IMG/VR virus record: IMGVR_UViG_3300022902_000064
Span: 1-26,200 of that record
DNA length: 26,200 nucleotides
Strand: one strand, 5' to 3'
From: a virus
The notes beneath the pieces were generated by a model. The model worked only from the letters and a program-made list of their open reading frames with translations, did not search any database and was not told the origin of the DNA. The translations under genes and the position numbers were made by a program. Shown here piece by piece: positions 407 through 14,235 of the stretch. Numbering within the stretch: the stretch's first letter is position 1; each line of letters opens with the position of its first letter.

Positions 407-435
407 ATTATATCAAACTTTACTAAACATTACAA
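407..435 (-). promoter_or_regulatory. Sigma-70-type promoter for the DUF2958 gene
   Basis: On the minus strand a perfect -10 box TATAAT (407-412) lies 17 bases downstream of TTGTAA (430-435, 4 of 6 matches to TTGACA). A-rich tracts just upstream of the -35 (about 440-470) resemble an UP element. The predicted start is near 400, about 24 bases before the ATG at 376. Confidence 0.75.
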
Positions 436-471
436 CCCTTTTTTAAAGTTTTTTTAATTATTGTTTATCAC

Positions 472-661
472 TGGCAGTAGATTCGAGTCCTCGCCTTACT
501 CCCCTCCACACTTGACTGCATGGAAAAGAGTAAATCAAGTTTATCACTGTATAGTGAGTTCTCATCCTACCAAACACTTGATCCCCTGGAAGCCCTACTT
601 CCCATCACATACTAGCTCCGTAATTCAAGCAACGAACTAGACCTTTCGGCTGTGACTGCCA
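472..661 (-). ncRNA. Candidate structured RNA, multi-helix fold closed by a 7-bp helix
   Basis: No coding frame fits this stretch, but the minus strand can form a dense nested fold. A closing helix UGGCAGU/ACUGCCA (655-661 with 472-478) encloses UCACA/UGUGA (651-655 with 605-609, which competes with the closing helix for position 655), GCC-GAAA-GGU with a GNRA loop (641-650), and CUAGUUCGU/ACGGAGCUAG with one bulge (632-640 with 612-621). It also encloses GGAAG/CUUCC (598-602 with 588-592), AUCAAGU/ACUUGAU (576-582 with 534-540) with an inner UCACU/AGUGA hairpin (544-557), and a 13-bp stem (521-533 with 496-508). Five pairs are G-U on this strand and would be C-A mismatches on the other, which fixes the orientation. 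I see no clear promoter of its own. It may be the 3' part of a longer transcript from 876. It matches no RNA family I recognise. Confidence 0.5.
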
Positions 662-687
662 CCTGTTAATTCAGGTTTCTTTTTTTG
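661..687 (+). terminator. Possible weak rho-independent terminator on the plus strand
   Basis: A small hairpin ACCTG/CAGGT with a 6-base loop (661-676) is followed on the plus strand by TTCTTTTTTT (677-686). The stem is only 5 bp. No plus-strand gene ends here, so it may only stop antisense transcription or may be coincidental. Confidence 0.25.
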
Positions 688-717
688 AAATTATGTCATT
701 TTCTACACTTTTACGCT

Positions 718-768
718 CCACCCTTTGGCGGCTTATAAAGCTGATAGCGGTAGTTTCCTAGTCGTATC
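718..768 (-). other. Cluster of small hairpins between the two RNA candidates
   Basis: The minus strand holds CCGCC-AAAG-GGUGG (718-731, with one G-U that would be A-C on the plus strand), GCUU-UAU-AAGC (731-741, sharing one base with its neighbour) and an interrupted hairpin GAUA...UAUC (743-768). There is no coding frame. These may join the 472-661 fold into one larger RNA. Nothing else is visible between 662 and 780. Confidence 0.35.
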
Positions 769-780
769 ATTTAGGGTCAG

Positions 781-876
781 AAAAAGCCCTATGTAGTAGG
801 TGAGGGTGCAAAGTACGCAGGGATTTCTCTCCCTACCATTCACCCACTACATAAGGCTCTAGGTCTTGTACTTTGC
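781..876 (-). ncRNA. Pseudoknotted small RNA with its own promoter and terminator
   Basis: The expected transcription start (G at 876, seven bases past the -10 box) is the first base of GCAAAGUAC (868-876). This is perfectly complementary to GUACUUUGC (808-816), which lies in the loop of a long hairpin. That hairpin is a 19-bp stem (840-858 with 785-803) whose only irregularities are two G-U pairs; both would be C-A mismatches on the plus strand. A further AGGGA/UCCCU hairpin (819-834) sits in the loop. The interleaved order makes a classical H-type pseudoknot. UUUU (781-784) follows the stem, so the hairpin can also act as the terminator, giving an RNA of about 96 nt. I recognise no known family. 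Confidence 0.7.
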
Positions 877-882
877 AAACCC

Positions 883-910
883 ATTATACATCACCTTTTA
901 AAAAAATCAA
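883..910 (-). promoter_or_regulatory. Sigma-70-type promoter of the pseudoknotted RNA
   Basis: On the minus strand a perfect TATAAT (883-888) lies 16 bases downstream of TTGATT (905-910, 4 of 6 matches to TTGACA). The start is predicted at G876. Its -35 lies in the T-rich tail of the terminator of the upstream late operon. Confidence 0.75.
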
Positions 911-947
911 ACATAAAAACAAAGAGCGACCCTAGAGCCGCCCTTTG
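895..947 (-). terminator. Rho-independent terminator of the late operon
   Basis: Downstream of the M23 gene the minus strand forms CAAAGGGCG/CGCUCUUUG (939-947 with 920-928, nine pairs with one G-U) with a 10-base loop. UUUUUAUGUUUGAUUUUUUU follows. The single wobble would be A-C on the plus strand, so it works towards the left. It closes the roughly 25-kb leftward morphogenesis operon. Confidence 0.85.
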
Positions 948-991
948 CAATCTTAACCATCAACCCATAACGGGGAGAGGTCGACCATATT

Positions 992-1687
992 TTAAAACAA
1001 ATCACTTAATTTATCAATCACAACCATCGCCCTATAGGCTGGCATCTTGTCCACACTCCCTATAATCTTTAAGTTTTTAAGTATCTTTTGAAACTCCAAC
1101 ATGTCTATTTCAGCATTCGGATCTTTAGGTGCAAGCCCTAACTTCATTGCCTTCTCCCAAGAATCCCTAGCCCATTCGGGTATTATTTCTTGTTTACTCA
1201 ACCATACCCAAGGATCTAAATAATAACTCTGAACATATTGCTTTGACTTCCCAGATGGGTAATAACACCACTTACGCCAATGTTTAGCCTGTTTTATAGC
1301 CATGTCACGATTAAATACCTCAAAGTGCAAATGAGGACTGTTAGTGCCACTGTTTCCTAAATACCCAATCAATTCTCCTTCTTTTACATACTTTGCAACC
1401 TTTATCCCATCAGCAGGTTCTTTCAAGTGTGCATATCGTGTATAATTGCCGTCTGCGTGGATTATAATCACAAACCACCCTAGACCTCCATTATTGTTAT
1501 TCTTCCACGTAGGAGCGGGTGAAACATACTCTATATGCCCTGCTCGTGCCGACACTACATCTTGTCCATAATCTTTCCATCCATACGACCAATTGAAGTC
1601 TATTCCAGGATGGTAGACTTTGTGTTTGCCATAATACTCCAGCCAATCAAGACCAGTTAACGGCATTGAATACTTTGTTGGATACAT
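992..1687 (-). CDS. M23 family peptidoglycan endopeptidase (endolysin or tail-associated lysin)
   Basis: This 231-residue protein carries a LytM/M23 zinc peptidase domain in about residues 20-130. HPGID supplies H26 and D30, YAHL has H87, and SPHLHFEV has H119 and H121, the standard zinc and catalytic set. Such enzymes cut peptide cross-bridges in peptidoglycan. There is no signal peptide. About 60 C-terminal residues (after WVWLSKQE) are helical and of unknown role, perhaps wall binding. It is the last gene of the late operon, directly after the tail fibre gene and before the terminator. It could therefore be the lysis endolysin or a virion peptidase used on entry. TTAACC lies 7 bases before the ATG. 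Confidence 0.88.
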   Translation of the reverse strand: MYPTKYSMPLTGLDWLEYYGKHKVYHPGIDFNWSYGWKDYGQDVVSARAGHIEYVSPAPTWKNNNNGGLGWFVIIIHADGNYTRYAHLKEPADGIKVAKYVKEGELIGYLGNSGTNSPHLHFEVFNRDMAIKQAKHWRKWCYYPSGKSKQYVQSYYLDPWVWLSKQEIIPEWARDSWEKAMKLGLAPKDPNAEIDMLEFQKILKNLKIIGSVDKMPAYRAMVVIDKLSDLF

Positions 1688-1702
1688 ATAAATTGGTTAA
1701 AT

Positions 1703-3862
1703 TTAATCTGTGACCTCTAGCAGCCCATGCCATTGTTCGCTTCCAGCATAGGTTGAGAAATTAAGATCAACATACATGCTTGTAACATCAACAATTGTCC
1801 CAGAACAACCACCCGCAGCCCCAGCGGTGGAAAGAAAATCAAGAGAAGTTGAGAAACCAGATACTTCAGAGTTGTCAGCCCCAGCCCTATTAGCATCGCT
1901 TGAGTACCAATATGTGCAATAGCTAATACTCCCAACCTTTTTACCTACCGACCATCCAGTATATCCAGACCCATATCTTTGAGCATTAAGGGTGACAGTT
2001 TTTGGCAAGACTCCAAGATTATGATAAATTCTTTGATACCCTGTTCCTATCGCCCCATTTCTCTCTGTTGTCCCTAGTGCAGCAGCCGTTTCTAAATCAA
2101 GATTTATATCAAGTTCATCCGTATCAGTAGCAATCCCAAAACATTTGCCCGAAACTGTATCTGTTAAATCATAAGTATGATTCTCCATATATTGTCGATC
2201 ACCAACGGTAAACCCAGCAAATCCAGTTAACTTTCCCCGACTTCTGGCAGCAACATCTTCTGTTGCAGATGCAGAATTTAAAGCAAACCCCACACAATAG
2301 CCAGTATTGTCATATTCTTGATGCATCCATCCAGTAGCACTTGCGCCATAGTGGACAACAAACAGGGTTCTGTCGTAGTCAACACTTGAAACAGCCATGT
2401 CAGGAGTAGCTCCTGCATAATAAGAACCATCTGCTGCCACACAATATATAGCAGTCCCAACTACACTAATCTCCATCCATTGAACATAGCCAGTTCCCGA
2501 AGATCTTGCTAGTATAACCGCTCTGTGAAGGCCTACTACATCCATGACAATATCCGTGGAGAGTGTTCCTATACTAGCATCTGGCTCTGTATCTGTTATA
2601 TTTTTAGTGGTTCCCGTTGATGCCCCCGCAGTTGTTAACAGCTCTGCCATAATATCATTCCCATCCCCTCTAAAAACGACTAAATAATAATTCCCCTCCC
2701 AGCTTATATTTACATAGTTTGCAATCATCCCTCCAAGAGTAGCAGTTGCCCCACTCGAAGGAGTATTCCCCGAAAACGAAACCTTCCAAGTCCTTAATAT
2801 CGCACCCGAATCATAAACGATCTGCACCTCATCATCTGTATAAGAGGCTATGTCAACTTTCCTGTCTCCATAATTTGCATCAGTGCGAGTTATAACATTC
2901 GCAAAGTAAGAAGTGATTGTTGTTCCCGACACCGTTACATTGAATATGTGAACGTAATCATTTGCACCCCCAGAATCTTCAAGGAATGTAACAGCGATTT
3001 TGTCAGTACCTATCATGCACATCGCACAACCCCTAGAACTACCCCCTGGAGTGTCTAAAACAACCTCTGTCCCCAAAGTGACAACTGTTCCGCTCACAGT
3101 TCCAATCCTCATTCGTATATCCGTTGCATTGATAAAATACAAAAATGCAATCTTGTCATCTTCCATGTAAAGAACCTGCGTTAAATATCCAGTACCAACA
3201 GAAGCCCCACTCACAAGATAACTTGTCCCATAAGTATCGTCCAAAGTTTCTGGATCTACTGTTGCAATTTTTACCCGTGCATATCCTCCAACACTATCTC
3301 TGTAAAATAAAGCAAACTTCAAGTCCGTAACCTTTGAACCTGAATAATCCGAAGATGACGCCGCATTCCCCAAAGATACAGGATCATCCATGCTGTGCTT
3401 TCTAGTTAACTCAACACTATCCGCAGTCCCTTCTATCATCGAAACAGCCTCATTAGCCGCAATCGTTTCAGAAGCGGTCCAAGACCTATCAATTACCTCT
3501 GCTCTTTTCCCAGTAGTAAGGATTTGGAAGTTCGTACCATCATATCCAAGTTCTATAATTGCTCCAGCAAGTATGTCTCCAAAAATAGGATCAGTACCAT
3601 CAGTTGATTTAATATTTACAGCCCCAATAGCATTCACATTTATAGTGCAAGCACCTGTATTAGTAAAACCTGCTTTAAATTTAATCACATCTCCAGCCAC
3701 ATAAGCTACATATTGAGCATCTATTGACAGAGTTTGAACATCGGCAGCACCTCCAGAAGTTGCATAAAATCCGCTATTACTCAAAGTGTCTAATCTCAAA
3801 GCATTTCTTTCGGCAGCAGTTATGATTTGATTAGCCGCTACGGTTGATGAATTCATTGCCAT
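1703..3862 (-). CDS. Tail fibre / receptor-binding-like structural protein
   Basis: This is a 719-residue beta-rich protein without cysteine-rich or membrane segments. The first 125 residues resemble the N-terminal region of many phage fibres: AAERNALRLDTLSNSGFY, then SIDAQYVAYVAGDVIKFKAG and YDGTNFQIL. The middle (about 150-560) has repeated strand-rich blocks of the kind ...VGTA/...RVKIATVDPETLDDTYG, suggesting a propeller or solenoid. The last 120 residues begin GYQRIYHNLGVLPKTVTL, a typical C-terminal domain of tail proteins. It sits between a tail protein and the M23 peptidase at the distal end of the tail module, where receptor-binding proteins lie. The start motif TTAACT is 9 bases before the ATG. 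Its exact ligand cannot be read from sequence. Confidence 0.6.
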   Translation of the reverse strand: MAMNSSTVAANQIITAAERNALRLDTLSNSGFYATSGGAADVQTLSIDAQYVAYVAGDVIKFKAGFTNTGACTINVNAIGAVNIKSTDGTDPIFGDILAGAIIELGYDGTNFQILTTGKRAEVIDRSWTASETIAANEAVSMIEGTADSVELTRKHSMDDPVSLGNAASSSDYSGSKVTDLKFALFYRDSVGGYARVKIATVDPETLDDTYGTSYLVSGASVGTGYLTQVLYMEDDKIAFLYFINATDIRMRIGTVSGTVVTLGTEVVLDTPGGSSRGCAMCMIGTDKIAVTFLEDSGGANDYVHIFNVTVSGTTITSYFANVITRTDANYGDRKVDIASYTDDEVQIVYDSGAILRTWKVSFSGNTPSSGATATLGGMIANYVNISWEGNYYLVVFRGDGNDIMAELLTTAGASTGTTKNITDTEPDASIGTLSTDIVMDVVGLHRAVILARSSGTGYVQWMEISVVGTAIYCVAADGSYYAGATPDMAVSSVDYDRTLFVVHYGASATGWMHQEYDNTGYCVGFALNSASATEDVAARSRGKLTGFAGFTVGDRQYMENHTYDLTDTVSGKCFGIATDTDELDINLDLETAAALGTTERNGAIGTGYQRIYHNLGVLPKTVTLNAQRYGSGYTGWSVGKKVGSISYCTYWYSSDANRAGADNSEVSGFSTSLDFLSTAGAAGGCSGTIVDVTSMYVDLNFSTYAGSEQWHGLLEVTD

Positions 3863-3880
3863 ATTTTATAAAGTTAATTT

Positions 3881-4486
3881 CTACGCATCATTCAGAGTTA
3901 TTATGCTCTGGACATTTAAAGTTTCTACATTCGATTTAGTTATCGACTGTGTAAACCTATTAAATAACTGACCAGTATCAGCACCAGCACCTCCATCTAT
4001 AAACATCCCATATTCTTCATAAGTTCCAGTTGTTTCGGTAGCAGTAAAGAAAGTTTCAACATAAGCAATATTGCTTGCATCCGTTCCACTACTCAAAGCC
4101 TTTCGATATACTTCTGTCCCTAAAGTCGCATCAGCAACAGTAGGTGCAGCATTACTAGACCCCAACGCTGTATAATTGACATTCCCTGTGTATGTATTAT
4201 CACCACCTAACCTTTGAGCTAAAACACTCCTTCCGACTGTAGTGGTTATGTTATTCACTACAAACTCCTGTGTCTTAAATTTATGTAAACGATCAATATG
4301 GAATCTATATTCATCCCACAACTGTTTTAACAGTCCTCTGGTGGCTTCACCCGTTTTAATCAACAACTGTCGTGCTAGGTGGCATTCCTCGAGCCTACGC
4401 TCACATTCTTGGGCCTTCTCATTGCGAACATCACATAAGGTAATTATATGAGTTCCTTTCGTCTTTAAAGTTTCATTGGTTTCCAT
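3881..4486 (-). CDS. Tail structural protein of unknown function
   Basis: A 201-residue protein with two parts. Residues 1-75 are helical and charged, with CERRLEECHLARQLL and LWDEYRFHIDRLHKFKT, and probably form a coiled coil or adaptor. Residues 76-201 are beta-rich and contain TTVGRSVLAQRLGGDNTYTG, followed by NYTALGSSNAAP, a pattern I associate with phage tail or baseplate accessory proteins. It lies between the hub-like protein and the long fibre, which suggests an attachment or chaperone role. GTAACA is 7 bases before the ATG. The stop is TAG, one of few in the window. I cannot name a family with certainty. Confidence 0.5.
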   Translation of the reverse strand: METNETLKTKGTHIITLCDVRNEKAQECERRLEECHLARQLLIKTGEATRGLLKQLWDEYRFHIDRLHKFKTQEFVVNNITTTVGRSVLAQRLGGDNTYTGNVNYTALGSSNAAPTVADATLGTEVYRKALSSGTDASNIAYVETFFTATETTGTYEEYGMFIDGGAGADTGQLFNRFTQSITKSNVETLNVQSIITLNDA

Positions 4487-4518
4487 AATAGTTTGTTACA
4501 TTATATATTTTAGCACTT

Positions 4519-6939
4519 TTAACCGAAATCGGCTAGATCGAATCTGGTTGTCAATGGTTGTCCCACCGAGGTTTCAAACTTCCAAGTTCCTGCTGGGTAA
4601 TCAACTGCGGTATTGACATCAGCACTTTCAACGGTTTCACCAATAGTTGCCCTTTCATCCCCACCTTCAATAGTTGCAGTGCTTACATCATCACAATCAA
4701 CATCTTCATCGGTACTTACATAAGTTTCGACTATATCATCAATATTTAATTCAATCTTGTCTTGAGTAGCCAAAAGCTTCTGCATAAATTCTATCCATCC
4801 AAACAGCGTTGTTCCAAACGTAATATTATAAGTGAGGTAATCGGAAAACTCACCACCAGCCTCTTTTATAGAGATCTTTTGCACGACATAAGTTTCATCA
4901 ATCCCCCTGTTAGAATCTGTTATAGTTAAAAGTTGTCCAGCACTTATTCCATGTTGATCAGTCGTTGCACTCCCCAAGATAGTCGCATTAGAAAATTCAC
5001 TCACCCTTGCCTGTGCTATCGCCAAAGCAGTCCCAACATCTTCAATATTCCTGTCCGTTATCGGATCAAGGTCAAAAACTCCATCCCCTAAACCGAGAGC
5101 TTTCAATGCGTTCACGCTTCCGTTGTCCTGATATTGTAATTGAATAGGCACTCTTTCATAGTACTGTAAAAGAATCCCATCCCCGGCGTTAAGAGTTGTC
5201 TCGCTTTCAGTTGCACGAATAGACTTTTCATTTGAATTATAGACGTAATCGACAGTTGTTTCGTCAACCAGCCCCTCGACCCCCCCGGTCTTCGCAACAG
5301 TAAAGAAGGTTATAGTATCTGTATTCGTCTGCCCCGCTATCGCTTCAACGGTAAAATTATCAGGATCAACGTAAGTAATTTCTCTCACCTCCGCAGCTCT
5401 AGTTTGATTTGTAATATAATCACCAGTCACTAAAGTATGTCCTGTGACTTTTATATTCGTCGTATTAGTCCCCGCCTCGGCGGCATGAGTGTCCGACTGA
5501 TCGTCAATAGTTATTATCAGTCCGGAGAATTTACTCTTTAAAAGCCAATCCCTTAAAACCCCATCACCAGGAAACGCTTGTGAGTAAATATTGTCCGAGA
5601 TCTTCTCGCCACCTCTTACAATAACTCTATTTCCTATTTGGCTCGCATCCACCCCGACCTTTAGTTTTGTAAAATTGTCAGAAGTATCAGTGAACGCAAT
5701 CGGCGAAGGGTCCGCCTCTTTGTCCTTAAAATGGATTAGTCTTAAGTAATCGATCCACCACACATATTCCCACGTTTTAGCCAAACTCTGCATAAAGCCA
5801 GTAGGTTTTAATTGCGGACTTCTAATATCGTCAAATTCAGGAGTTTCTTCTACGCTCGGATAGTGGTTGAAAAATTTGTTATCCATAAACCGAAACCCAT
5901 CAAACAGGACCCCAGAGTCAGCAGTTTCCACAATATAGATCTCTATAAAATCCATCGCAGTCCAATCGGGAGTTCCTGTAACTCCAGTATTGTCGGCAAG
6001 CCTCGCCGTTACGTAAACCCATTCGTTGTCAGTAGGCACGATTTGATAGTTGGTAAAATGAGCAGCAGCACTTCCGATCCGAACATCAAAGCTAGTCACT
6101 TTTGTATAGTCGGTGCATTTATACCAGAACCCCAGGATTCCTTGAGTGGGTAGCCCAGAAGCAGTTCCTGTGTAGTCGGAAACATCCATGCTTGAAGGTG
6201 AAGCTGTAAAGGTCGCATTACCGCCGACAAACGTCCAGTTAAAATCTCCACAAGTATCACCTTCCCTATAATTAGTTGCCTCTAAATCTGGGTTATCACC
6301 ATCTCCAGCTTCTATCCATTCAGCCCTCAAAGCAGTCACATTCTCGTACTCCATCGAATCTATTACCCTGTTCCGGTTTATAGTCGTATTGCAAAAATCA
6401 TTTATAATATACCTCGAATCCCGGTCTTCCCAAGAGTCCGATATTAACTTTTTGTCGAATATTTTTGAGTAGTCAACCCCGGTCACATCGTATTCAATTT
6501 GATCCAAAGAGTACACATTCCGATCCTTCACCCTACCAACCACGCCCCCGAATATAATCTCGCCAATCTTGTCTCCTTGCACAACCGACCCGCTAGGTGC
6601 AGCCTCTAAAACTATCTGCAAGGTTGCCTCATCGTAACTCTGCACAATAACAGTTTCTTCATCAGCATCTCCAACCCGGATCCTTAACTCTTGCCCGGCC
6701 CGAAACATCCCGACATCTGTTTGAAAATCACCGTCAAGAGTAACAGTCGCACCGCCAAAACTCGCTATAGTATCTCCTTTATAAATCCTCAAATCCGTAT
6801 TCTCGATAGGCTGTGTCGCCCCATTGACTAGTTTAAAATTACACGAATCTGCTCTTTGTTGGATCTCGTTATTGATCCGGAGAGAGCCTGATTGGTAATC
6901 CGTAGTGTTGTCAACATCGTCAATGTAAAGGTATAGCAT
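4519..6939 (-). CDS. Tail hub / tail-tip protein with an inserted beta-sandwich
   Basis: An 806-residue protein encoded directly after the tape measure gene, the usual place of distal tail or hub proteins. The N-terminal 160 residues (NEIQQRADSCNFKLVNG, then GGVVGRVKDRNVY and YDVTGVDYSKIF) look like the hub beta-barrel of siphophage tail-tip proteins. A smaller beta domain interrupts it at about 60-128. Residues about 205-352 form a glycine- and aromatic-rich block ending GVLFDGFRFMD, resembling a carbohydrate-binding beta-sandwich. After it the hub-like part resumes, followed by a C-terminal region with LAIAQARVSEFSNATILG and a final extension. The start codon follows the tape measure stop without a gap, so translation is probably coupled. 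No peptidase motif is visible. Confidence 0.6.
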   Translation of the reverse strand: MLYLYIDDVDNTTDYQSGSLRINNEIQQRADSCNFKLVNGATQPIENTDLRIYKGDTIASFGGATVTLDGDFQTDVGMFRAGQELRIRVGDADEETVIVQSYDEATLQIVLEAAPSGSVVQGDKIGEIIFGGVVGRVKDRNVYSLDQIEYDVTGVDYSKIFDKKLISDSWEDRDSRYIINDFCNTTINRNRVIDSMEYENVTALRAEWIEAGDGDNPDLEATNYREGDTCGDFNWTFVGGNATFTASPSSMDVSDYTGTASGLPTQGILGFWYKCTDYTKVTSFDVRIGSAAAHFTNYQIVPTDNEWVYVTARLADNTGVTGTPDWTAMDFIEIYIVETADSGVLFDGFRFMDNKFFNHYPSVEETPEFDDIRSPQLKPTGFMQSLAKTWEYVWWIDYLRLIHFKDKEADPSPIAFTDTSDNFTKLKVGVDASQIGNRVIVRGGEKISDNIYSQAFPGDGVLRDWLLKSKFSGLIITIDDQSDTHAAEAGTNTTNIKVTGHTLVTGDYITNQTRAAEVREITYVDPDNFTVEAIAGQTNTDTITFFTVAKTGGVEGLVDETTVDYVYNSNEKSIRATESETTLNAGDGILLQYYERVPIQLQYQDNGSVNALKALGLGDGVFDLDPITDRNIEDVGTALAIAQARVSEFSNATILGSATTDQHGISAGQLLTITDSNRGIDETYVVQKISIKEAGGEFSDYLTYNITFGTTLFGWIEFMQKLLATQDKIELNIDDIVETYVSTDEDVDCDDVSTATIEGGDERATIGETVESADVNTAVDYPAGTWKFETSVGQPLTTRFDLADFG

Positions 6940-8472
6940 TTAGACAACTTTAGTCGATAATTGTAATTTTTGAGTTATAATATCAGCATATTCCTCGGCG
7001 ACTTCGGCACTAGAGATTATGCTATTGTAAAGGTTCACCACAACACCGCCAAGTGCGTGGTTAGGTATAATCTTTCCGCTATTACTAGGAACAAAAACCT
7101 CGGGACCTTTTTCTCCAACAATTGAAGGCATACCACCAAACACAGGTCCGCCAGCCGCATTTCGAGGCATCGAAAACTCCATCGGTATGTCTTTTAATTG
7201 TCGAGGAGCAGGATTAAAAGTTTCAGTTTCCGCCATCCCTAAAGTTGCAAGTTCAGCGATAGCATCTCTTGTCCATTTTAACAGCGATTTTATACTCTCA
7301 ATTATTCCGTCAATTATAGTCCCAAGAGTTGAAGCAATTCCTTCCCAAATACTTATCAGGATAGTTTTAAACCCCTCCCACACCATGTCCCAGTCGCCCC
7401 TCAATAACCCCATCGCAACTTCAATTATTCCCCTCAAGATTCCAAGAGCCATCGTTACAACGCCCTTTATTAGTTCCCACGCAGTTGTTAGTGCAGTTCT
7501 AATAGCAAGCCAATCCCCTTCCCACGCCTTTTTTATTAGGACCATTATTTCAGCAAATAACGCAACCAGAGCCATTATTGTCGGAAAAACATTTTCCTGG
7601 ATCCACGCCCACGCCGTTTCTATAGTCGTCCTTATCCCATACCAATCTTCTTCCCACATCTCTTTTATCAACCCCATCTGCCATTGTAATTCTTGAGCAA
7701 CGCCAGAGATCCAGCCGGCAATACTCGCCAGCATAGGTGCCAGGAGTTGTCCGACAGTTTCCTTAAAATCGCCCCAATCGTTAGCCGCAGCAGTCAAAGC
7801 CCCGGCGGTTGTGTTCCGCAATTCCTCGGCAGCACCCCCAAAGTTATCTGTCAAAATTTTAACCAATAACTCTGTTTTCTCAACCCCGGTCGCTAGATTG
7901 AACTGTTCTTTCTGAACATCTGTTAAGGTTATTCCGTAACGCCCCAAAGCTCCAGCCCCGGTGGTCATAGCTTTACCCATAGCAATTGCAAGGTCATTCA
8001 AGTCCGCCACTTGCCCGCTAGTCTTTTCCGTACTCGCCGCCATGTCTAACAAGGCAGGAGTTAAGTTCATTATCTCGTTTCCTGTTAATTGAAAAGTTCC
8101 GAGCATAGCCTGTGCAGAAATGATCTGCTCATCCCCAAAGGTTGTTGTTTTTTGTAAAGCCTTCGCATACTCCTTCAAATCCCAGATCAAAAACTCGGCA
8201 CTTTGTTCCGCCCCTTGAAACGTCTTTCCCAAAACTTTCAGATTGTTTATAGAAGCTGTCAGTCTCGCCTCGGCTTTTTCCTGTACTCCATAAAGTCTTA
8301 TTGATTCAGTAATAAATTGTTTAATCTTCACAACCCCAAAGGCAGCTCCAAAAGCAGCTCCCAACTTGAGAGCGGAACTCTTTAAACTCCCGGTGGTTTT
8401 CTTAACCTTATTGATCTTACCAGAAGCCGTGTCTTTGGCCTTGATATTGATTGTTAAGTTACTTGTTGCCAT
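6940..8472 (-). CDS. Tape measure protein
   Basis: A 510-residue helical protein with a lysine-rich N-terminus, alanine-rich helices, and hydrophobic segments around residues 295-315 and 335-357. A WEEDW...WEGDW...LRGDW series (W277, W321, W361) gives three loose repeats of about 40-44 residues. The C-terminal motif GGPVFGGMPSIVGEKGPEVFVPS (about 441-463) followed by KIIPNH is highly typical of siphophage tape measures. The protein sets tail length and may pass through the host membrane. At 0.15 nm per residue it predicts a tail of about 75-80 nm. It lies directly after the frameshifted chaperone pair, and its start overlaps the end of the T frame. The start motif is weak, suggesting coupling. 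Confidence 0.9.
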   Translation of the reverse strand: MATSNLTINIKAKDTASGKINKVKKTTGSLKSSALKLGAAFGAAFGVVKIKQFITESIRLYGVQEKAEARLTASINNLKVLGKTFQGAEQSAEFLIWDLKEYAKALQKTTTFGDEQIISAQAMLGTFQLTGNEIMNLTPALLDMAASTEKTSGQVADLNDLAIAMGKAMTTGAGALGRYGITLTDVQKEQFNLATGVEKTELLVKILTDNFGGAAEELRNTTAGALTAAANDWGDFKETVGQLLAPMLASIAGWISGVAQELQWQMGLIKEMWEEDWYGIRTTIETAWAWIQENVFPTIMALVALFAEIMVLIKKAWEGDWLAIRTALTTAWELIKGVVTMALGILRGIIEVAMGLLRGDWDMVWEGFKTILISIWEGIASTLGTIIDGIIESIKSLLKWTRDAIAELATLGMAETETFNPAPRQLKDIPMEFSMPRNAAGGPVFGGMPSIVGEKGPEVFVPSNSGKIIPNHALGGVVVNLYNSIISSAEVAEEYADIITQKLQLSTKVV

Positions 8473-8967
8473 GCTTTTTTGATTGTTTTATAGTTCGCTG
8501 ATTCTCACAGCTTATAATTTCCATCAGGTAGGTCATTCTTTTAGCATCGTACTTTTCCCACTCAAGCCCGAATCTCTTTGACATCTCGTAATCTGCGAAT
8601 TGCTGCTCCGCCCCTTTCCGGGTCTTTTCGTAAACAACATTAGCCTTTATGACTTCGAGCTTTTTTTTTCTGGCACATAGATTGGCAAGACAGGTGTGGC
8701 AATTTCCACGATAGACGACATTGACAGCCTTTCGATATTTTCAGGAGTACATTCGATCTTTTCCCCATCCTGTTCAAAACTCCAAGCCGTCAGCACGATC
8801 TTTAAAAGAGGTAAAGCGAGTCCGATATTACTCATAGCATCATTGGCATCGGCTTTCCCAAAGATCTCCTTGAACTGTTCAAAACTCATTTGCTCTTTCA
8901 CCTCCACCCAATCCCCATCGGATAAATCGATTCTTATAACTTTGTCAGATATAAATCTGTTCTTCAT
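8459..8967 (-). CDS. Tail assembly chaperone GT fusion made by -1 frameshift
   Basis: The upstream frame (8647-8967) reaches GAA AAA AAA AGC at 8670-8659, within a run of nine A residues (8661-8669). A -1 slip on A-AAA-AAA continues into a frame that stays open for 67 codons (KLEVIKANVVYEK... to ...KKHGNK) and stops with TAA at 8459-8461, 12 bases inside the tape measure gene. The fusion would be 169 residues. The second frame has no start codon near its beginning, so it depends on slippage. The arrangement, between tail tube and tape measure genes, is that of lambda G/GT chaperones, which coat the tape measure during tail assembly. The product is seen only by conceptual translation. Confidence 0.82.
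8647..8967 (-). CDS. Tail assembly chaperone (G-type, unshifted product)
   Basis: This 106-residue protein lies between the tail tube and tape measure genes. It has a beta-rich N-terminus (MKNRFISDKVIRIDLSDGDWVEVKEQ), then a helical part with EQFKEIFGKADANDAMSN and VLTAWSFEQDGEKIECTPENIERL, the shape of phage tail chaperone G analogues. It ends EKKSSKS four codons after the slippery A run. Most ribosomes should make this short form and a minority the GT form. TTAACC lies 10 bases before the ATG. The family assignment rests on position, size and the frameshift rather than on a strong motif. Confidence 0.8.
   Translation of the reverse strand: MKNRFISDKVIRIDLSDGDWVEVKEQMSFEQFKEIFGKADANDAMSNIGLALPLLKIVLTAWSFEQDGEKIECTPENIERLSMSSIVEIATPVLPIYVPEKKSSKS
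8659..8670 (-). promoter_or_regulatory. Slippery site for programmed -1 frameshift
   Basis: In the zero frame the minus strand reads GAA AAA AAA AGC. The heptamer A-AAA-AAA allows a -1 shift of both tRNAs with full re-pairing. The shifted frame then reads AAG CTC GAA. A +1 shift would end after a few codons, so only -1 gives the long product. Confidence 0.8.
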
Positions 8968-8991
8968 AATACTGTTTGGTTAAGATATTTT

Positions 8992-10401
8992 TTAATAAGT
9001 AGCCACGTCATTCACGAGCAATAGCAAGTGGGAAATCCCGAGAGATGCGTTGTAGAAAGAAGTAAAAGGAATCTCCTCACCAACAATGTCGTCCTGTGCT
9101 AGTGATAGTTGGTAAGAGTCAAACTGCACTTCCGGATATAAGCTCCTTAATTGGAAGTACATCCCGGACGTAGAAATCTGGTTCCCGGTAGTTGTCACCT
9201 CAACAGATTGTGCGGTATTTACCCTCAAGTGTCTATAATAATTTTCGTCCTCGTTGTGCAAAGTCAAAGTTCCTCCTCCAGTAAACCCTTTCTGTAATAG
9301 GTCCGATGGAAATAAATCCTGGAAGTCCGAACCGGTCGCAGCATGTCGAGCCTCGAATTCGTTATTTACAACCATTGTGAAGTCCTGGCAGTCAAACGCC
9401 GCCATATTGTCAACGTCATCCCCAATGTTCGCATCAGCACCACCGATCCAGCAGAATTCTTCGTCTAAAGTGTAGGAAGGTGTTTGAGGTGCAAGCACTA
9501 TCAGATCCCCGACAGCAGTTGAAGTCTCAAGAGCAGTCACAACGAATTGAGTTGAGTTAGTTACAGAATCTATAGCATGTTCATAAACCGCAGCCGAAGG
9601 GAAAGCCAAGAAGCCTGTCCCAGGTCTATAAAGTTTAATTGCGTCAGCAGCAACCAACCCAAGTGTTTGGTCCACAGTAATTGTTTGTGCGCCTCCAGCA
9701 GCAACAGTGACCGCAGTTACTCTTGCGTGTCGGAATTCACTTTGAGCCATCATGTTAATGTCCGCAGTAATAATATTGTCAGCCTGTCCGATCGCATCGA
9801 TACTATGAAACTGAACGCCCATATATCTTACGGCCCGATCAGTATAATTCTTTTGAAGTGTGTAAGTTTGGTCAAGAGTAGTAGGTGCAGATCCAACGTG
9901 TCCGTATACCGAATTGTTTGAAGCAACCACAACCGCAGTTTTGTTTCCAACCACCGTTTCAGTAATCGTTTCCCCATCCGTAAATTCACCAGAAGGTGAA
10001 GTGATTAAGATAAATTCTTGGTTGAAGTGATACGCAACTGTCGCAGTTTTAGCCGATACTGATCCTGTTATAGTAGATCCAACAGAAAAGTCACCACTAA
10101 AAGTATTCGCAGTCATGTAATTCCCGGAAGTAATTCCGCCATACAGCCCGTTGACAATGTGTCCAAATGTTTTAGGCTCTACGTTGACGGTGATAGCTCC
10201 GGCGGGTGCAGGGACCTTGTTCTTAATAGCCCGCAAATTCATCGCCCTATTCCCCGACACAGGTGTCGATGGACTATTGGGATATTCAGAAGTGATACTT
10301 TCACTCTGAAATGGAATAAAAGTAGTAGGCGTTAAGGCTACGTTCGCAGTCGCTTCCTTTATTAGCGACATCGATCCAACCCTTGAGTATGTTTCTGACA
10401 T
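8992..10401 (-). CDS. Major tail tube protein
   Basis: A 469-residue beta-rich protein directly upstream of the tail chaperone, the position of the tail tube gene. The N-terminus (YSRVGSMSLIKEATANVALTPTTFIPFQSESI) and the C-terminal part (QDFTMVVNNEFEARHAATGSDFQDLFPS, SVEVTTTGNQIS) fit a tube protein. Segments around 95-170 (TANTFSGDFSVGSTITG, GEFTDGETI) and 230-300 (VAAGGAQTITVDQTLGL) look like inserted beta domains that would decorate the tube exterior. That explains the length, as simple tube proteins are about 150-250 residues. ATAACA lies 9 bases before the ATG. There is no sheath gene beside it, which supports a non-contractile tail. Confidence 0.72.
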   Translation of the reverse strand: MSETYSRVGSMSLIKEATANVALTPTTFIPFQSESITSEYPNSPSTPVSGNRAMNLRAIKNKVPAPAGAITVNVEPKTFGHIVNGLYGGITSGNYMTANTFSGDFSVGSTITGSVSAKTATVAYHFNQEFILITSPSGEFTDGETITETVVGNKTAVVVASNNSVYGHVGSAPTTLDQTYTLQKNYTDRAVRYMGVQFHSIDAIGQADNIITADINMMAQSEFRHARVTAVTVAAGGAQTITVDQTLGLVAADAIKLYRPGTGFLAFPSAAVYEHAIDSVTNSTQFVVTALETSTAVGDLIVLAPQTPSYTLDEEFCWIGGADANIGDDVDNMAAFDCQDFTMVVNNEFEARHAATGSDFQDLFPSDLLQKGFTGGGTLTLHNEDENYYRHLRVNTAQSVEVTTTGNQISTSGMYFQLRSLYPEVQFDSYQLSLAQDDIVGEEIPFTSFYNASLGISHLLLLVNDVATY

Positions 10402-10419
10402 GATAGTTTATGTTATAAA

Positions 10420-10629
10420 TTATTTTTTAAGTTTATCCTTTTCCTCTTTCTCATGCTCCTTTTTCAGTTCTTTAGTCTCTTTTCTAGCATTTTCCTTCTT
10501 TACAAGCTTTGCATGCCCCCGGCTAATAAGCAGGTCGGCGAGCGTGTCATTGATACGAACCTCTTGCCCCTTTTTAAAAGATGGACTGTTGGGGATCATT
10601 ACATTCTCTTTTAGCAATACAAGTTTCAT
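10420..10629 (-). CDS. Small conserved phage protein with basic tail
   Basis: A 69-residue protein. Residues 1-42 have the pattern KENVMIPNSPSFKKGQEVRI...LADLLISRGHAKLV, a short beta-barrel-like module that recurs in small phage structural-region proteins. The rest is a charged tail of Lys and Glu. The module resembles that of the 18118-18315 protein (KGETYKV...AKLFKDKKFI), so the two may be paralogues. It lies between the tail terminator candidate and the tail tube gene, and CTAACC is 9 bases before the ATG. The function is unknown. Confidence 0.6.
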   Translation of the reverse strand: MKLVLLKENVMIPNSPSFKKGQEVRINDTLADLLISRGHAKLVKKENARKETKELKKEHEKEEKDKLKK

Positions 10630-10663
10630 ATTGTTTTGGGTTAGTTTTTACGAGTATATAATA

Positions 10664-10677
10664 GCACAATACTGTGC
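10664..10677 (-). repeat. Small inverted repeat between two tail genes
   Basis: GCACA-GTAT-TGTGC forms a perfect 5-bp hairpin in the intergenic gap, followed on the minus strand by TATTATATAC. It is too weak and lacks a U-tract for a confident terminator call. It might be a processing or pausing site. Confidence 0.3.
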
Positions 10678-10682
10678 AATAA

Positions 10683-11174
10683 TTAAGACCTGTTCGTCAA
10701 TTGCGTCACCATACTAAAGTTCAAAGTCCCTTTCATGTAAAGAGTATCATTCACAATATTATCAAAATCATAATCTATTGAGATGTCATTGTTGAACAAA
10801 TAATTAGTACCCTGAATATTTCTCCTCAAAGTCCCCAGTATAGTCGCAGCTTTTGGAGTCCCATTAGCATCCCTTTCTTCCATAAGGTCTATTAGAGCCT
10901 TTTGAGCATCCAAAATAGAGTCAGCCTCAACTCCGGTGGTAGAAACCTTCTCAAACCCACTCATTATCAGATCTATACCTATTGTGTATCTATACTTGTC
11001 TCTCGCTGTCCCTAGCTGGTCACTCACAAGCTCCGTTGCTTCCGCATACACGCAAACAACAGGTAAGTATGCCAAAGGAGGTGTTTTAACCTTCCCAACA
11101 TAGTATTTTTTTACAGCAGTCGCACTCATTGCAGTCGCTATAATTCCTTTAATTTCTGCTAGTGCTAGTTGCAT
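10683..11174 (-). CDS. Tail terminator / tail completion protein candidate
   Basis: A 163-residue protein placed between the gpG-like gene and the tail tube gene, where tail terminator proteins are encoded. It opens with a helix (QLALAEIKGIIATAMSA), then KVKTPPLAYLPVVCVY, a charged strand region (DKYRYTIGIDLIMSG), a helix with ILDAQKALIDLMEERD, and closing strands (NNDISIDYDFD, LYMKGTLNFSMV). This alternation matches the alpha/beta layout of gpU-like terminators. Sequence alone gives no diagnostic motif, so the call is mainly positional. The start motif is weak (AAAACT 11 bases upstream). Confidence 0.5.
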   Translation of the reverse strand: MQLALAEIKGIIATAMSATAVKKYYVGKVKTPPLAYLPVVCVYAEATELVSDQLGTARDKYRYTIGIDLIMSGFEKVSTTGVEADSILDAQKALIDLMEERDANGTPKAATILGTLRRNIQGTNYLFNNDISIDYDFDNIVNDTLYMKGTLNFSMVTQLTNRS

Positions 11175-11175
11175 A

Positions 11176-11619
11176 TTATTTTATTAGTTTTTTAATATAT
11201 TTTTCAAACCCTTCCATCACTATATTGATCACCTCTTTGTTTATCCCGAGCATCGGCCTTTTCTTCTGGTTGTATTTAAAGTATTTAACATTATTCTTTA
11301 TCGTAAGTTTGAACTTCGAGACAGTTTTTCTGAATCCTTTTTTTAGTGTCCCGGTCCAAATCAAGATCTTGTTAGTAATAATCGGCGATTTAGAGTAATG
11401 TCCCCGGCGATCCAGCCTCGCCTCTATAGTGGAAGCACTTAAACCTCTCCAAGGAGATCCGATAGCACGACCTTGAGTGTCAAAAACCTTCTTGCCATAG
11501 AACTCTATCAGGTCATTTCCGACATTAGTTAGTGGTACTTTGAAGCTTTTAACACCTTTAGCCATTGTGTTAAATTTTTTAACCACCTTTTTGTCGTCCA
11601 CAGTCATGCTGATTTCCAT
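11176..11619 (-). CDS. Virion morphogenesis protein, Mu gpG-like / HK97 gp10-like
   Basis: A 147-residue protein with the hallmarks of the phage virion morphogenesis family. A helical N-terminus with FKVPLTNVGNDLIEFYGKK is followed by GSPWRGLSASTIEARLDRRGH, then PIITNKILIWTGTLKKGF, where the G-x-PW and TG-x-L segments are conserved. The C-terminal third is very basic, with many Lys. Members act at the head-tail joint or in tail completion. The gene overlaps the DUF1320 gene by one base (TAATG), indicating translational coupling. Confidence 0.78.
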   Translation of the reverse strand: MEISMTVDDKKVVKKFNTMAKGVKSFKVPLTNVGNDLIEFYGKKVFDTQGRAIGSPWRGLSASTIEARLDRRGHYSKSPIITNKILIWTGTLKKGFRKTVSKFKLTIKNNVKYFKYNQKKRPMLGINKEVINIVMEGFEKYIKKLIK

Positions 11620-12065
11620 TAGAATTGTTTGTTCATTGTAAATTTTGGAGCGGTGCTGTTAGTTGCGGTAGCAGCAGAACTCGCATCGGTAGGGTAAAAC
11701 GCCGGCAGCAAAACATCACTAATAGCCAGTTCGTCCCCATTGCTATCGTATAGCTTGATTTTTCTAGTCCGGATCTGTTCGAGTAGTTCTAGTTGTCGGT
11801 TGAATTCGTCCACCACATCGACCCCCGGCATAACTTCAATGTTCGTGTTTTGATCCATAAAAATCAAATAACACGCAATCTTGATACTCGCCATCCGAAT
11901 CAAAGGCGGAGTTTCAGATAAAGGCAAAGAATAAGCATCCCCGATCTTTCCATCAATAATTCCATCAGCTTCCTCAATACGATCATCCATGTAAGAGCCA
12001 GGAATCAATGTGTCATTTTTGAACGGACTAGCCGCTCTCACTTCTGCTTCTAAAGAATAAGCCAT
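11619..12065 (-). CDS. DUF1320 head-tail connector protein (Mu gp36-like)
   Basis: A 148-residue protein with the DUF1320 layout. An N-terminal helical segment is followed by DDRIEEADGIIDGKIGDAYSLPL around residues 27-49, then TPPLIRMASIKIACYLIF and a helix with NRQLELLEQIRTRKIKL. Family members are small head-completion or adaptor proteins that bind beneath the portal. In Mu-like phages the gene normally follows the major capsid gene. Here about 8.2 kb separate them. The C-terminus is rich in Ala, Ser and Thr. ATAACC lies 11 bases before the ATG. It is coupled to the gpG-like gene. Confidence 0.8.
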   Translation of the reverse strand: MAYSLEAEVRAASPFKNDTLIPGSYMDDRIEEADGIIDGKIGDAYSLPLSETPPLIRMASIKIACYLIFMDQNTNIEVMPGVDVVDEFNRQLELLEQIRTRKIKLYDSNGDELAISDVLLPAFYPTDASSAATATNSTAPKFTMNKQF

Positions 12066-12067
12066 TA

Positions 12068-12280
12068 TTATTTTAAGGTTATAGGTTCTACAGTTTTAAA
12101 TCTGTTATAAACATCCCAGCATCCTTTTAAGAAAGCACCAACACTCATCAACATCATTTCGGTATTGATCTCCCCAAGAAGAAGTTGAGCGATAGCGGTA
12201 AACAATCCTGCCAAGGCAAGAAAGAATCCACCCCACACTGTCTTGGACTTGAACATTTGTTTTGCTGTTTTTTTAGCCAT
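12068..12280 (-). CDS. Small holin-like membrane protein
   Basis: A 70-residue protein with a basic N-terminus (MAKKTAKQMFKSK), a strong hydrophobic segment at about residues 15-36 (VWGGFFLALAGLFTAIAQLLLG), a short polar link, and a second weaker segment at about 43-58 (MLMSVGAFLKGCW), ending in a short polar tail. This pattern is common in small phage holin-like proteins. There is no direct proof of lysis function, and it lies far from the M23 gene, in a block of structural genes. ATAACC is 9 bases before the ATG. Confidence 0.55.
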   Translation of the reverse strand: MAKKTAKQMFKSKTVWGGFFLALAGLFTAIAQLLLGEINTEMMLMSVGAFLKGCWDVYNRFKTVEPITLK

Positions 12281-12291
12281 TGTTTTATTGG

Positions 12292-12528
12292 TTATTTAAT
12301 TAATATAGCTTCTATCCTATACGCAATCGCTGTAACCTCATCCAACTTCGCCTGTAAATGTGGCAAGTGATTATCCATTATCTTCTCAATCGCTACTTGG
12401 TTGGCTTCAATAGCCACTTGGTTGAGAGCGATATTCTTATCCACTGTGGCAAGGAATATGCAGAACATAATCACCAACGGGATTAGCCTGACCGTTTCAT
12501 GCCATAGATTTATTTTTGGCGTTTCCAT
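12292..12528 (-). CDS. Small membrane-anchored coiled-coil protein
   Basis: A 78-residue protein with one membrane segment (about residues 14-28, LIPLVIMFCIFLATV) followed by a predicted coiled coil. The coil starts with a heptad duplication NQVAIEA-NQVAIEK, visible in DNA as two similar 21-bp units near 12391-12432. It is adjacent to the holin-like gene. Such proteins often act as holin partners, spanin-like factors or virion membrane-contact proteins, but none of these is established here. The start motif is weak (ATAATC 7 bases upstream). Confidence 0.5.
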   Translation of the reverse strand: METPKINLWHETVRLIPLVIMFCIFLATVDKNIALNQVAIEANQVAIEKIMDNHLPHLQAKLDEVTAIAYRIEAILIK

Positions 12529-12537
12529 ATTTATTGA

Positions 12538-14235
12538 TTATTGGATTATTGGTGAAAATTTAAAGTTACGATACTTGCCTCCTACTGCTGTTGACCAAGC
12601 AAATGCAACATTAGAAGATGTGTGTGGTGCAGCATCAGCTACGGAATATCCTAGTGGAGTAGCAGTATATGTCTGTCCATTATCTGTTGAGTGATACATT
12701 GTCCAAGTTGTTCCATCACGAGTTAATCTAATTCTATACCAAGTGTTCAAAGAGAATGTTCCACTAGATTGTTGTAATAATGTTGCCCCAGACGTATCTC
12801 TGTAAAGCTCGAATTTCTCTGTACTAGCAAAGTTGAAATAATACGAATTAGTATTAGTCCCCAGAGTGCCAACAATATCTGACATCAGGACGAAGACACT
12901 AGAACCTGCATCTGCTGTCTTGTAAATATCAAACTCCCAAGCCCCATAGGCTTGCTTTGAATCCCTGAATACCTTGCCTGTCGCTATACAATCTATGTGC
13001 TTCTTGCCATCACTGCCTCCATTATTGACAACCTTCCATGTCCCTGAATCAATCTCCCAATCCGCATTACTTAAAAACCCTGTAGTTTCATTCGCTACAC
13101 TTTCGTTCCACCCTTTACCATCAGCTATGTAAACTGGGTCGGAATTAGGTATTTCTTGTACAGTTATGTCATCCCAAGCCGTATATCCTGATGTTTGTCC
13201 AGAATGATATAATAAAAAATCTTTAGCAGAATTATCCCAAGTCTTAACAAAATCAAAATACTGCCAGTCAGTCGATAATGTTCCAGTCCACAAAGTTGTT
13301 GTGAAGTCATTTATCTGTGGTGTCCAAGTGCCATCACTTTTCGCCCAACCTGTTATTCTATAGGTTTTACCAACTTCTACTGTATTATTCACTCTAGCTC
13401 CTGGACCAGGAGAACCGTTATAAGCCACCTTCAAATACTGACTACCTGAATGTGGAGTATCTGTTTCCTTTGTCAATGTAGCACTCTGCCACGCTACATA
13501 GTCTGTTGTCCCTACTGCTTCCATATCACCATCTGGCATTAGGTTTCTTTCTGGGTTACTCAATCGCTGTATGTCTACTCTGTCGTAATGTCCTTCTTGT
13601 AACCCTTCTTCGTATAATTGAGAGGCTTCTGCACCTGTAAGTTCTACACCTTTCCAGATAATAGCGTCTTGTACGTAACCATCAATCCATTGTGCACCTC
13701 CATTGTTTTCTGTTCCTAACCCCACTAAATCTGAAGCATCTTCAACATAAGCCTTTGAACCAGTAGCTGCAAATACACCGTCTATGTAAAAATTCATCGC
13801 CCCTGTTGATTCATTGTGAGTACCAACAAGATGAACCCATCTATTATAAGCGATTGCACCAGTTATACTTGTTGAAGTACCATTACCAATAGTGAATCCA
13901 AAACTGCCACCGTTAGAACAATAAAATCTCCAACCATTGTTGGTGCTATGCCTTGCAAATATACAATCAAATGCTGACGCACTTCTCAAATAAACCCAAC
14001 AACTCAAACTAAAATCTACTCCAGTGACATTATAAGCTGTATTAGCTGGGTCGACTAGAATTTCAGTCGCAGCTCCGTCCATATTAGGCACTCTACCTCG
14101 TTCGGTATTCACCCAATAAGTTGAACCAGAAGACAATGTAGCAGGATTTCCTTTACCAGAAAGGTCAGCAAGTGACCCGTCTCCCAGCCAGTTACCAACT
14201 ATCTTTTCTAGGTATTTGTCCTTAATTTTTGTCAT
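12538..14235 (-). CDS. LamG / carbohydrate-binding-domain structural protein
   Basis: A 565-residue protein made of adhesin-type beta-sandwich domains. Residues about 10-205 are a LamG/concanavalin-like domain (DFSLSCWVYLRSASAFD, WVHLVGTHNESTGAMNFYIDG, GYVQDAIIWKG). Residues about 225-365 resemble a CBM4/9-type module (LMPDGDMEAVGTTDYVAW, HSGSQYLKVAYNG, GKTYRITGWAKSDG). Residues about 375-565 are another lectin-like sandwich (YGAWEFDIYKTADAGSSVF, RIRLTRDGTTWTMYHSTDNG). It is a likely virion surface protein that binds glycans on the host or in mucus. It lies between capsid and connector genes and beside a second LamG protein. TTAACT lies 8 bases before the ATG. Confidence 0.7.
   Translation of the reverse strand: MTKIKDKYLEKIVGNWLGDGSLADLSGKGNPATLSSGSTYWVNTERGRVPNMDGAATEILVDPANTAYNVTGVDFSLSCWVYLRSASAFDCIFARHSTNNGWRFYCSNGGSFGFTIGNGTSTSITGAIAYNRWVHLVGTHNESTGAMNFYIDGVFAATGSKAYVEDASDLVGLGTENNGGAQWIDGYVQDAIIWKGVELTGAEASQLYEEGLQEGHYDRVDIQRLSNPERNLMPDGDMEAVGTTDYVAWQSATLTKETDTPHSGSQYLKVAYNGSPGPGARVNNTVEVGKTYRITGWAKSDGTWTPQINDFTTTLWTGTLSTDWQYFDFVKTWDNSAKDFLLYHSGQTSGYTAWDDITVQEIPNSDPVYIADGKGWNESVANETTGFLSNADWEIDSGTWKVVNNGGSDGKKHIDCIATGKVFRDSKQAYGAWEFDIYKTADAGSSVFVLMSDIVGTLGTNTNSYYFNFASTEKFELYRDTSGATLLQQSSGTFSLNTWYRIRLTRDGTTWTMYHSTDNGQTYTATPLGYSVADAAPHTSSNVAFAWSTAVGGKYRNFKFSPIIQ

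Follow-up and report, generated by a model that had tools for sequence, protein, structure and literature searches.

A structured RNA under selection is very probably encoded on the minus strand at positions 781 to 876 of the window, by which we mean the whole stretch of 26,200 nucleotides of viral DNA analysed, and the comparison with two related phage lineages makes a strong case that this RNA is real. We favour the reading that it is a stand-alone small RNA of the phage, about 96 nt long, with its own sigma-70-type promoter and an end-sealed pseudoknot, which would act in trans by its shape; the chances that this reading is right are about even. Sequence comparison establishes the elements of the RNA, the covariation of its paired bases, a topology that recurs, a conserved promoter and a strand bias of the G-U pairs. 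Rapid drift makes phage small RNAs difficult to detect, and the present one offers a searchable signature, namely a promoter whose +1 base opens a segment that pairs with the loop of the terminator that follows.

Elements of the predicted small RNA

The window is a fragment from IMG/VR whose structural genes (terminase, portal, protease, capsid, tape measure and M23 peptidase) lie on the minus strand. The small RNA sits past the M23 gene and its terminator; beyond it come about 350 non-coding nt, then an early promoter and a DUF2958 gene. Its promoter region reads TTGATT-N16-TATAAT-GGGTTT-G876 in minus-strand letters, placing the predicted +1 at G876, 7 nt past the -10. The features are as follows.

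919-948, minus strand: late-operon terminator that follows the M23 gene and immediately precedes the small-RNA promoter; conserved in both related lineages (G001 and G002)
883-910, minus strand: sigma-70-type promoter TTGATT-N16-TATAAT, with the -35 TTGATT at 910-905 and the -10 TATAAT at 888-883
781-876, minus strand: predicted small RNA of about 96 nt, from +1 at G876 to a 3' end in the U-tract 785-781
868-876, minus strand: S1, the 5' pseudoknot arm GCAAAGUAC, beginning at +1
840-858, minus strand: S2, the 5' arm of the 19-bp terminator stem, reaching to 860
817-836, minus strand: hairpin H3, GUAGGG/CCCUGC (836-831/822-817), within the S2 loop and abutting S1'
808-816, minus strand: S1' arm GUACUUUGC, within the S2 loop, a perfect complement of S1
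785-803, minus strand: S2' arm, followed by the U-tract
430-780, minus strand: non-coding, possibly structured stretch of about 350 nt that separates the small RNA from the early promoter
407-435, minus strand: separate promoter of the early (DUF2958) operon, TTGTAA-N17-TATAAT, present in G001 too

Read from G876, the RNA consists of S1 (GCAAAGUAC), a linker, the S2 5' arm, H3, S1' (GUACUUUGC), ACCC, the S2' arm and UUUUU. The original prediction had described the promoter, the start at G876, the 9-nt S1 match, the U-tailed stem of 19 bp and an RNA of about 96 nt, and every one of these was recovered in place. Two irregularities of the S2 stem (858-840/803-785) had been described as G-U pairs on the minus strand, and both are present; the third hairpin, H3, in the S2 loop refines the earlier description. 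Folded without the pseudoknot, the 96-nt strand reaches -43.8 kcal/mol (z = -6.2).

We estimated how often such an arrangement arises by chance with shuffle energies that are simplified stacking sums with several entries approximated, and that rank stability rather than measure it. For S1 and S2 in this order, ending at a U-tract, no shuffle matched the score among 400 dinucleotide shuffles for the window, for G001 or for G002. When 24,000 random starts were scored across both strands in the window and in G002, the best 15 scores all fell at these two RNA loci; 9 starts scored -50 or lower and 16 scored -44 or lower. With S2 held fixed and S1 considered alone, the score was matched by 24 of 3000 shuffles in the window, 84 of 3000 in G001 and 0 of 3000 in G002. 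By itself, S1 in the window is thus just moderately unlikely, and the relatives carry the case. The window value is what speaks for an ordinary terminator or DNA inverted repeat with an S1 match by chance, an explanation that is strongly disfavoured and in our estimate very improbable, since S1 is compensated in G001 and recurs in G002 and the G-U pairs show a strand bias.

Covariation and recurrence in related phages

Three lineages in all carry the RNA locus: that of the window, which has a near-identical copy (L005), G001 (L002/L015) and G002 (L003/L013). Positions 880-12567 of the window are 99.4 % identical to positions 3278-14967 of L015 (G001). Identity drops from about position 1180 downward, over the end of M23, the RNA and DUF2958 (73 %), so that the comparison of the RNA is informative despite the near-identical late genes. 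Judged from this alignment, the shared late genes and diverged early module, with the switch inside M23, represent a recent and ordinary module exchange. We rejected the idea that the small RNA marks the exact site of a swapped hypervariable cassette, as the fall in identity begins within M23 and the early genes differ too.

The pseudoknot stem S1 is GAATAATAC/GTATTATTC in G001 and GCAAAGTAC/GTACTTTGC in the window; 6 pairs are unchanged, 3 are double compensatory and 0 are broken. For the 21 pairs of S2 the corresponding counts are 9 unchanged, 6 double compensatory, 5 compatible single and 1 broken. All pair counts were taken on ungapped stems registered by hand, because MAFFT, in aligning the window with G001, shifts S2' by one base. 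Relatives that break the 868-876/808-816 or 840-858/785-803 pairings without compensation had been named as evidence against the RNA; the result is the opposite, with 9 double compensatory changes and 5 compatible single changes against 1 broken pair over both stems. On the RNA strand, S2 contains 3 G-U pairs in the window and 3 in G001 versus 0 and 1 A-C pairs, an excess that points to selection on the minus strand. The pairing sequence of H3 is retained in G001, where its loop is longer. Promoter spacing is the same, the -35 being TTGTCT. The U-tract of G001 is short (UUUUAU), and termination may therefore be weak there.

The RNA of G002 shares little sequence with the other two, yet the order S1, S2, hairpin, S1', S2' and U-tract recurs. 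Promoter spacing is again the same (-35 TTGACT). S1 comprises 18 bp (1-22/58-78) and begins at the predicted +1, and S2 comprises 13 bp (24-36/81-93), its final three pairs lying within the U-tract. The inner hairpin UGCGAC-UUACC-GUCGCA (6 bp) occupies the same place as H3 with a different sequence, and the tail is U7. The predicted topology thus holds in a phage whose letters are new, and S1 starts at +1 in all three phages. In G002, S2 can alternatively be extended by pairing 39-43 with 74-78, and this RNA may have two states.

Mode of action and known systems

The original prediction knew of no family with this shape. The proposed search with cmscan against Rfam gave no match at the gathering threshold and none of note at relaxed thresholds, and the HDV-type covariance models gave none either, whether at gathering or with E relaxed to 10. 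The strand order itself is known. HDV-like ribozymes are arranged as P1, P2, P3 hairpin, P1', P2', with P1 starting at nucleotide 1, and all three RNAs share this order. Unlike in those ribozymes, nucleotide 1 here is the predicted transcription start with no upstream sequence to cut, and a junction of 2-5 nt between S1' and S2' replaces P1.1, P4 and the J4/2 that carries the catalytic C. The small RNA would accordingly share the order alone and not be an HDV-like ribozyme, the ribozyme features being absent.

We propose that during elongation the 5' end of the RNA would be captured by S1' (nt 61-69), that S2 would close next, and that the U-tract would free the transcript, yielding a pseudoknot. 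Folds of successive prefixes agree with this order, with S1 closing at nt 70-88 and S2 afterwards. No base belongs to both S1 and S2, so the final RNA can contain the two stems at once, provided that their helices lie alongside each other. Given the short linkers (about 8-9 nt in the window and in G001; 1-3 nt in G002), such packing is the only way for the stems to coexist, and by our estimate these lengths permit it. With its first nucleotides inside a helix and its 3' end formed by the terminator stem, the RNA would be sealed at both ends against end-dependent nucleases. In view of RppH, RNase E/J and the 3' exonucleases, a paired 5' end together with a terminator 3' end should make the predicted product stable. 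Because the letters drift while the pairing stays, we infer that the RNA works in trans by its shape, with a host or phage protein as the most likely binding partner, and not by antisense pairing; transcription, stability, protein binding and a target are all part of that inference.

The same order of folding also speaks for the main rival, a cis-acting terminator switch of the kind seen in the lambda pR' or put leader or in attenuators, which we consider possible but distinctly less probable. S1 would here pair first and alter termination at S2, so that polymerase could read through the roughly 350 non-coding nt and enter the early operon. In its favour, the transcript begins exactly with S1, which pairs into the terminator loop, every gene is located downstream in the same orientation, and in G002 nested folds without the pseudoknot favour the S1 form (-30.7 kcal/mol) over S2 alone (-21.0 and -18.8 kcal/mol for its two forms). 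Against a switch, the lack of shared bases leaves S1 and S2 without direct competition in the window or G001, and the first 350 nt downstream hold no conserved gene. The early operon has a separate promoter, and therefore the small-RNA promoter is not needed for a gene. Short structured RNAs located right at phage promoters are known from the lambda pR' leader, which ends at an intrinsic terminator, and from HK022 put. The likeness extends to the position directly at a phage promoter; here, in contrast, the pseudoknot takes in +1, the promoter of the next operon is separate and no Q- or N-like gene was identified.

For the stand-alone small RNA, a parallel in kind is the ToxI system. Tandem repeats give rise to ToxI, a 36-nt pseudoknot whose partner is the ToxN endoribonuclease, and pseudo-ToxI of phage PhiTE is a phage-encoded pseudoknot RNA that neutralises a protein by mimicry (PMC3475682). 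The likeness is that of a phage-encoded pseudoknot RNA; in contrast to ToxI, the RNA here is one 96-nt unit without repeats and with no toxin neighbour recognised. A test for a type III toxin-antitoxin system found a single unit on direct reading, DUF2958 and M23 as neighbours and no recognised ToxN-like toxin, and the ten early proteins scanned gave 0 matches to a defence library. A more specific proposal by analogy, which we regard as unlikely, is that these RNAs would form a fast-drifting phage family, sealed at both ends, whose shape alone inhibits a host protein, for instance a toxin or a defence nuclease; pseudo-ToxI inhibits a protein too, but via a quite different fold. Should the RNA be transcribed and bind a protein, phages would possess a compact natural scaffold that resists nucleases at both ends, and perhaps a protein-free means of acting on hosts. 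Among open-licence papers, a query on phage-encoded small RNAs with a pseudoknot returned none, and broader queries yielded no description of this RNA.

Genomic setting and further observations

Several searches looked for additional carriers of the locus. DNA similarity of positions 380-1000 in phage and plasmid records gave short chance matches only, and a pattern scan on the conserved H3 core returned no contigs beyond the known ones. Relatives found by exonuclease, portal and capsid in viral contigs included no further contig reaching the RNA locus, and genome scans for a prophage found none. Two relatives by DUF2958 (L006, L007) have no such RNA in the 700 nt upstream, as read by eye. Three candidates from a terminator-plus-promoter pattern scan (L027, L029 and L030) were rejected as chance matches inside genes.

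The non-coding stretch at 430-780 folds better than shuffles on the minus strand (z = -2.66; -1.85 in G001 and 0.13 in G002) but not on the other strand (z = -0.17), and could contain a second structured RNA. That this stretch is AT-rich, and that no polymerase, helicase or primase was recognised among the early proteins scanned, would suit a replication RNA, that is, one that primes or controls an origin in the adjoining DNA. We consider this improbable, since the GC skew of G002 and of the window has no switch here and the small RNA ends before the non-coding stretch.

The G002 genome (L013, L014) is 36,836 bases long and apparently complete because it has a 127-base end repeat. Its RNA locus likewise follows M23, with no DUF2958 gene adjoining, and no integrase, polymerase, helicase or primase was recognised among its proteins scanned. 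A TET-associated glycosyltransferase and a ParB-like protein are encoded upstream of its terminase.

Few Shine-Dalgarno sequences precede the genes of the window (most genes, e.g. starts 8967, 15591 and 16551, minus strand) or those of L013. In their place stands TAAC or TTAACCAA, about 6-14 nt before the ATG, a pattern that suggests a host with an unusual ribosome-binding signal; a literature search found nothing. The three small RNAs contain AUG-started frames of 16, 18 and 22 codons. Chance alone would give frames of this length in about half of cases, and these frames lack the TAAC motif seen at other genes. A tiny leader peptide from them is possible.

Two short sequence matches lie near the RNA. 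With one bulge, GACCUAGAGCC in the small RNA (856-866) is a complement of GGCUCUAGGGUC in the M23 terminator hairpin (919-948); this match is not kept in G001 and is probably chance. The early promoter (407-435 in the window, 4231-4259 in L002, near 4231 in L003) overlaps the short repeats TTTAGTAAA, GTTTATTAAAC and, twice, CTTGTAAACA, which look like a repressor operator.
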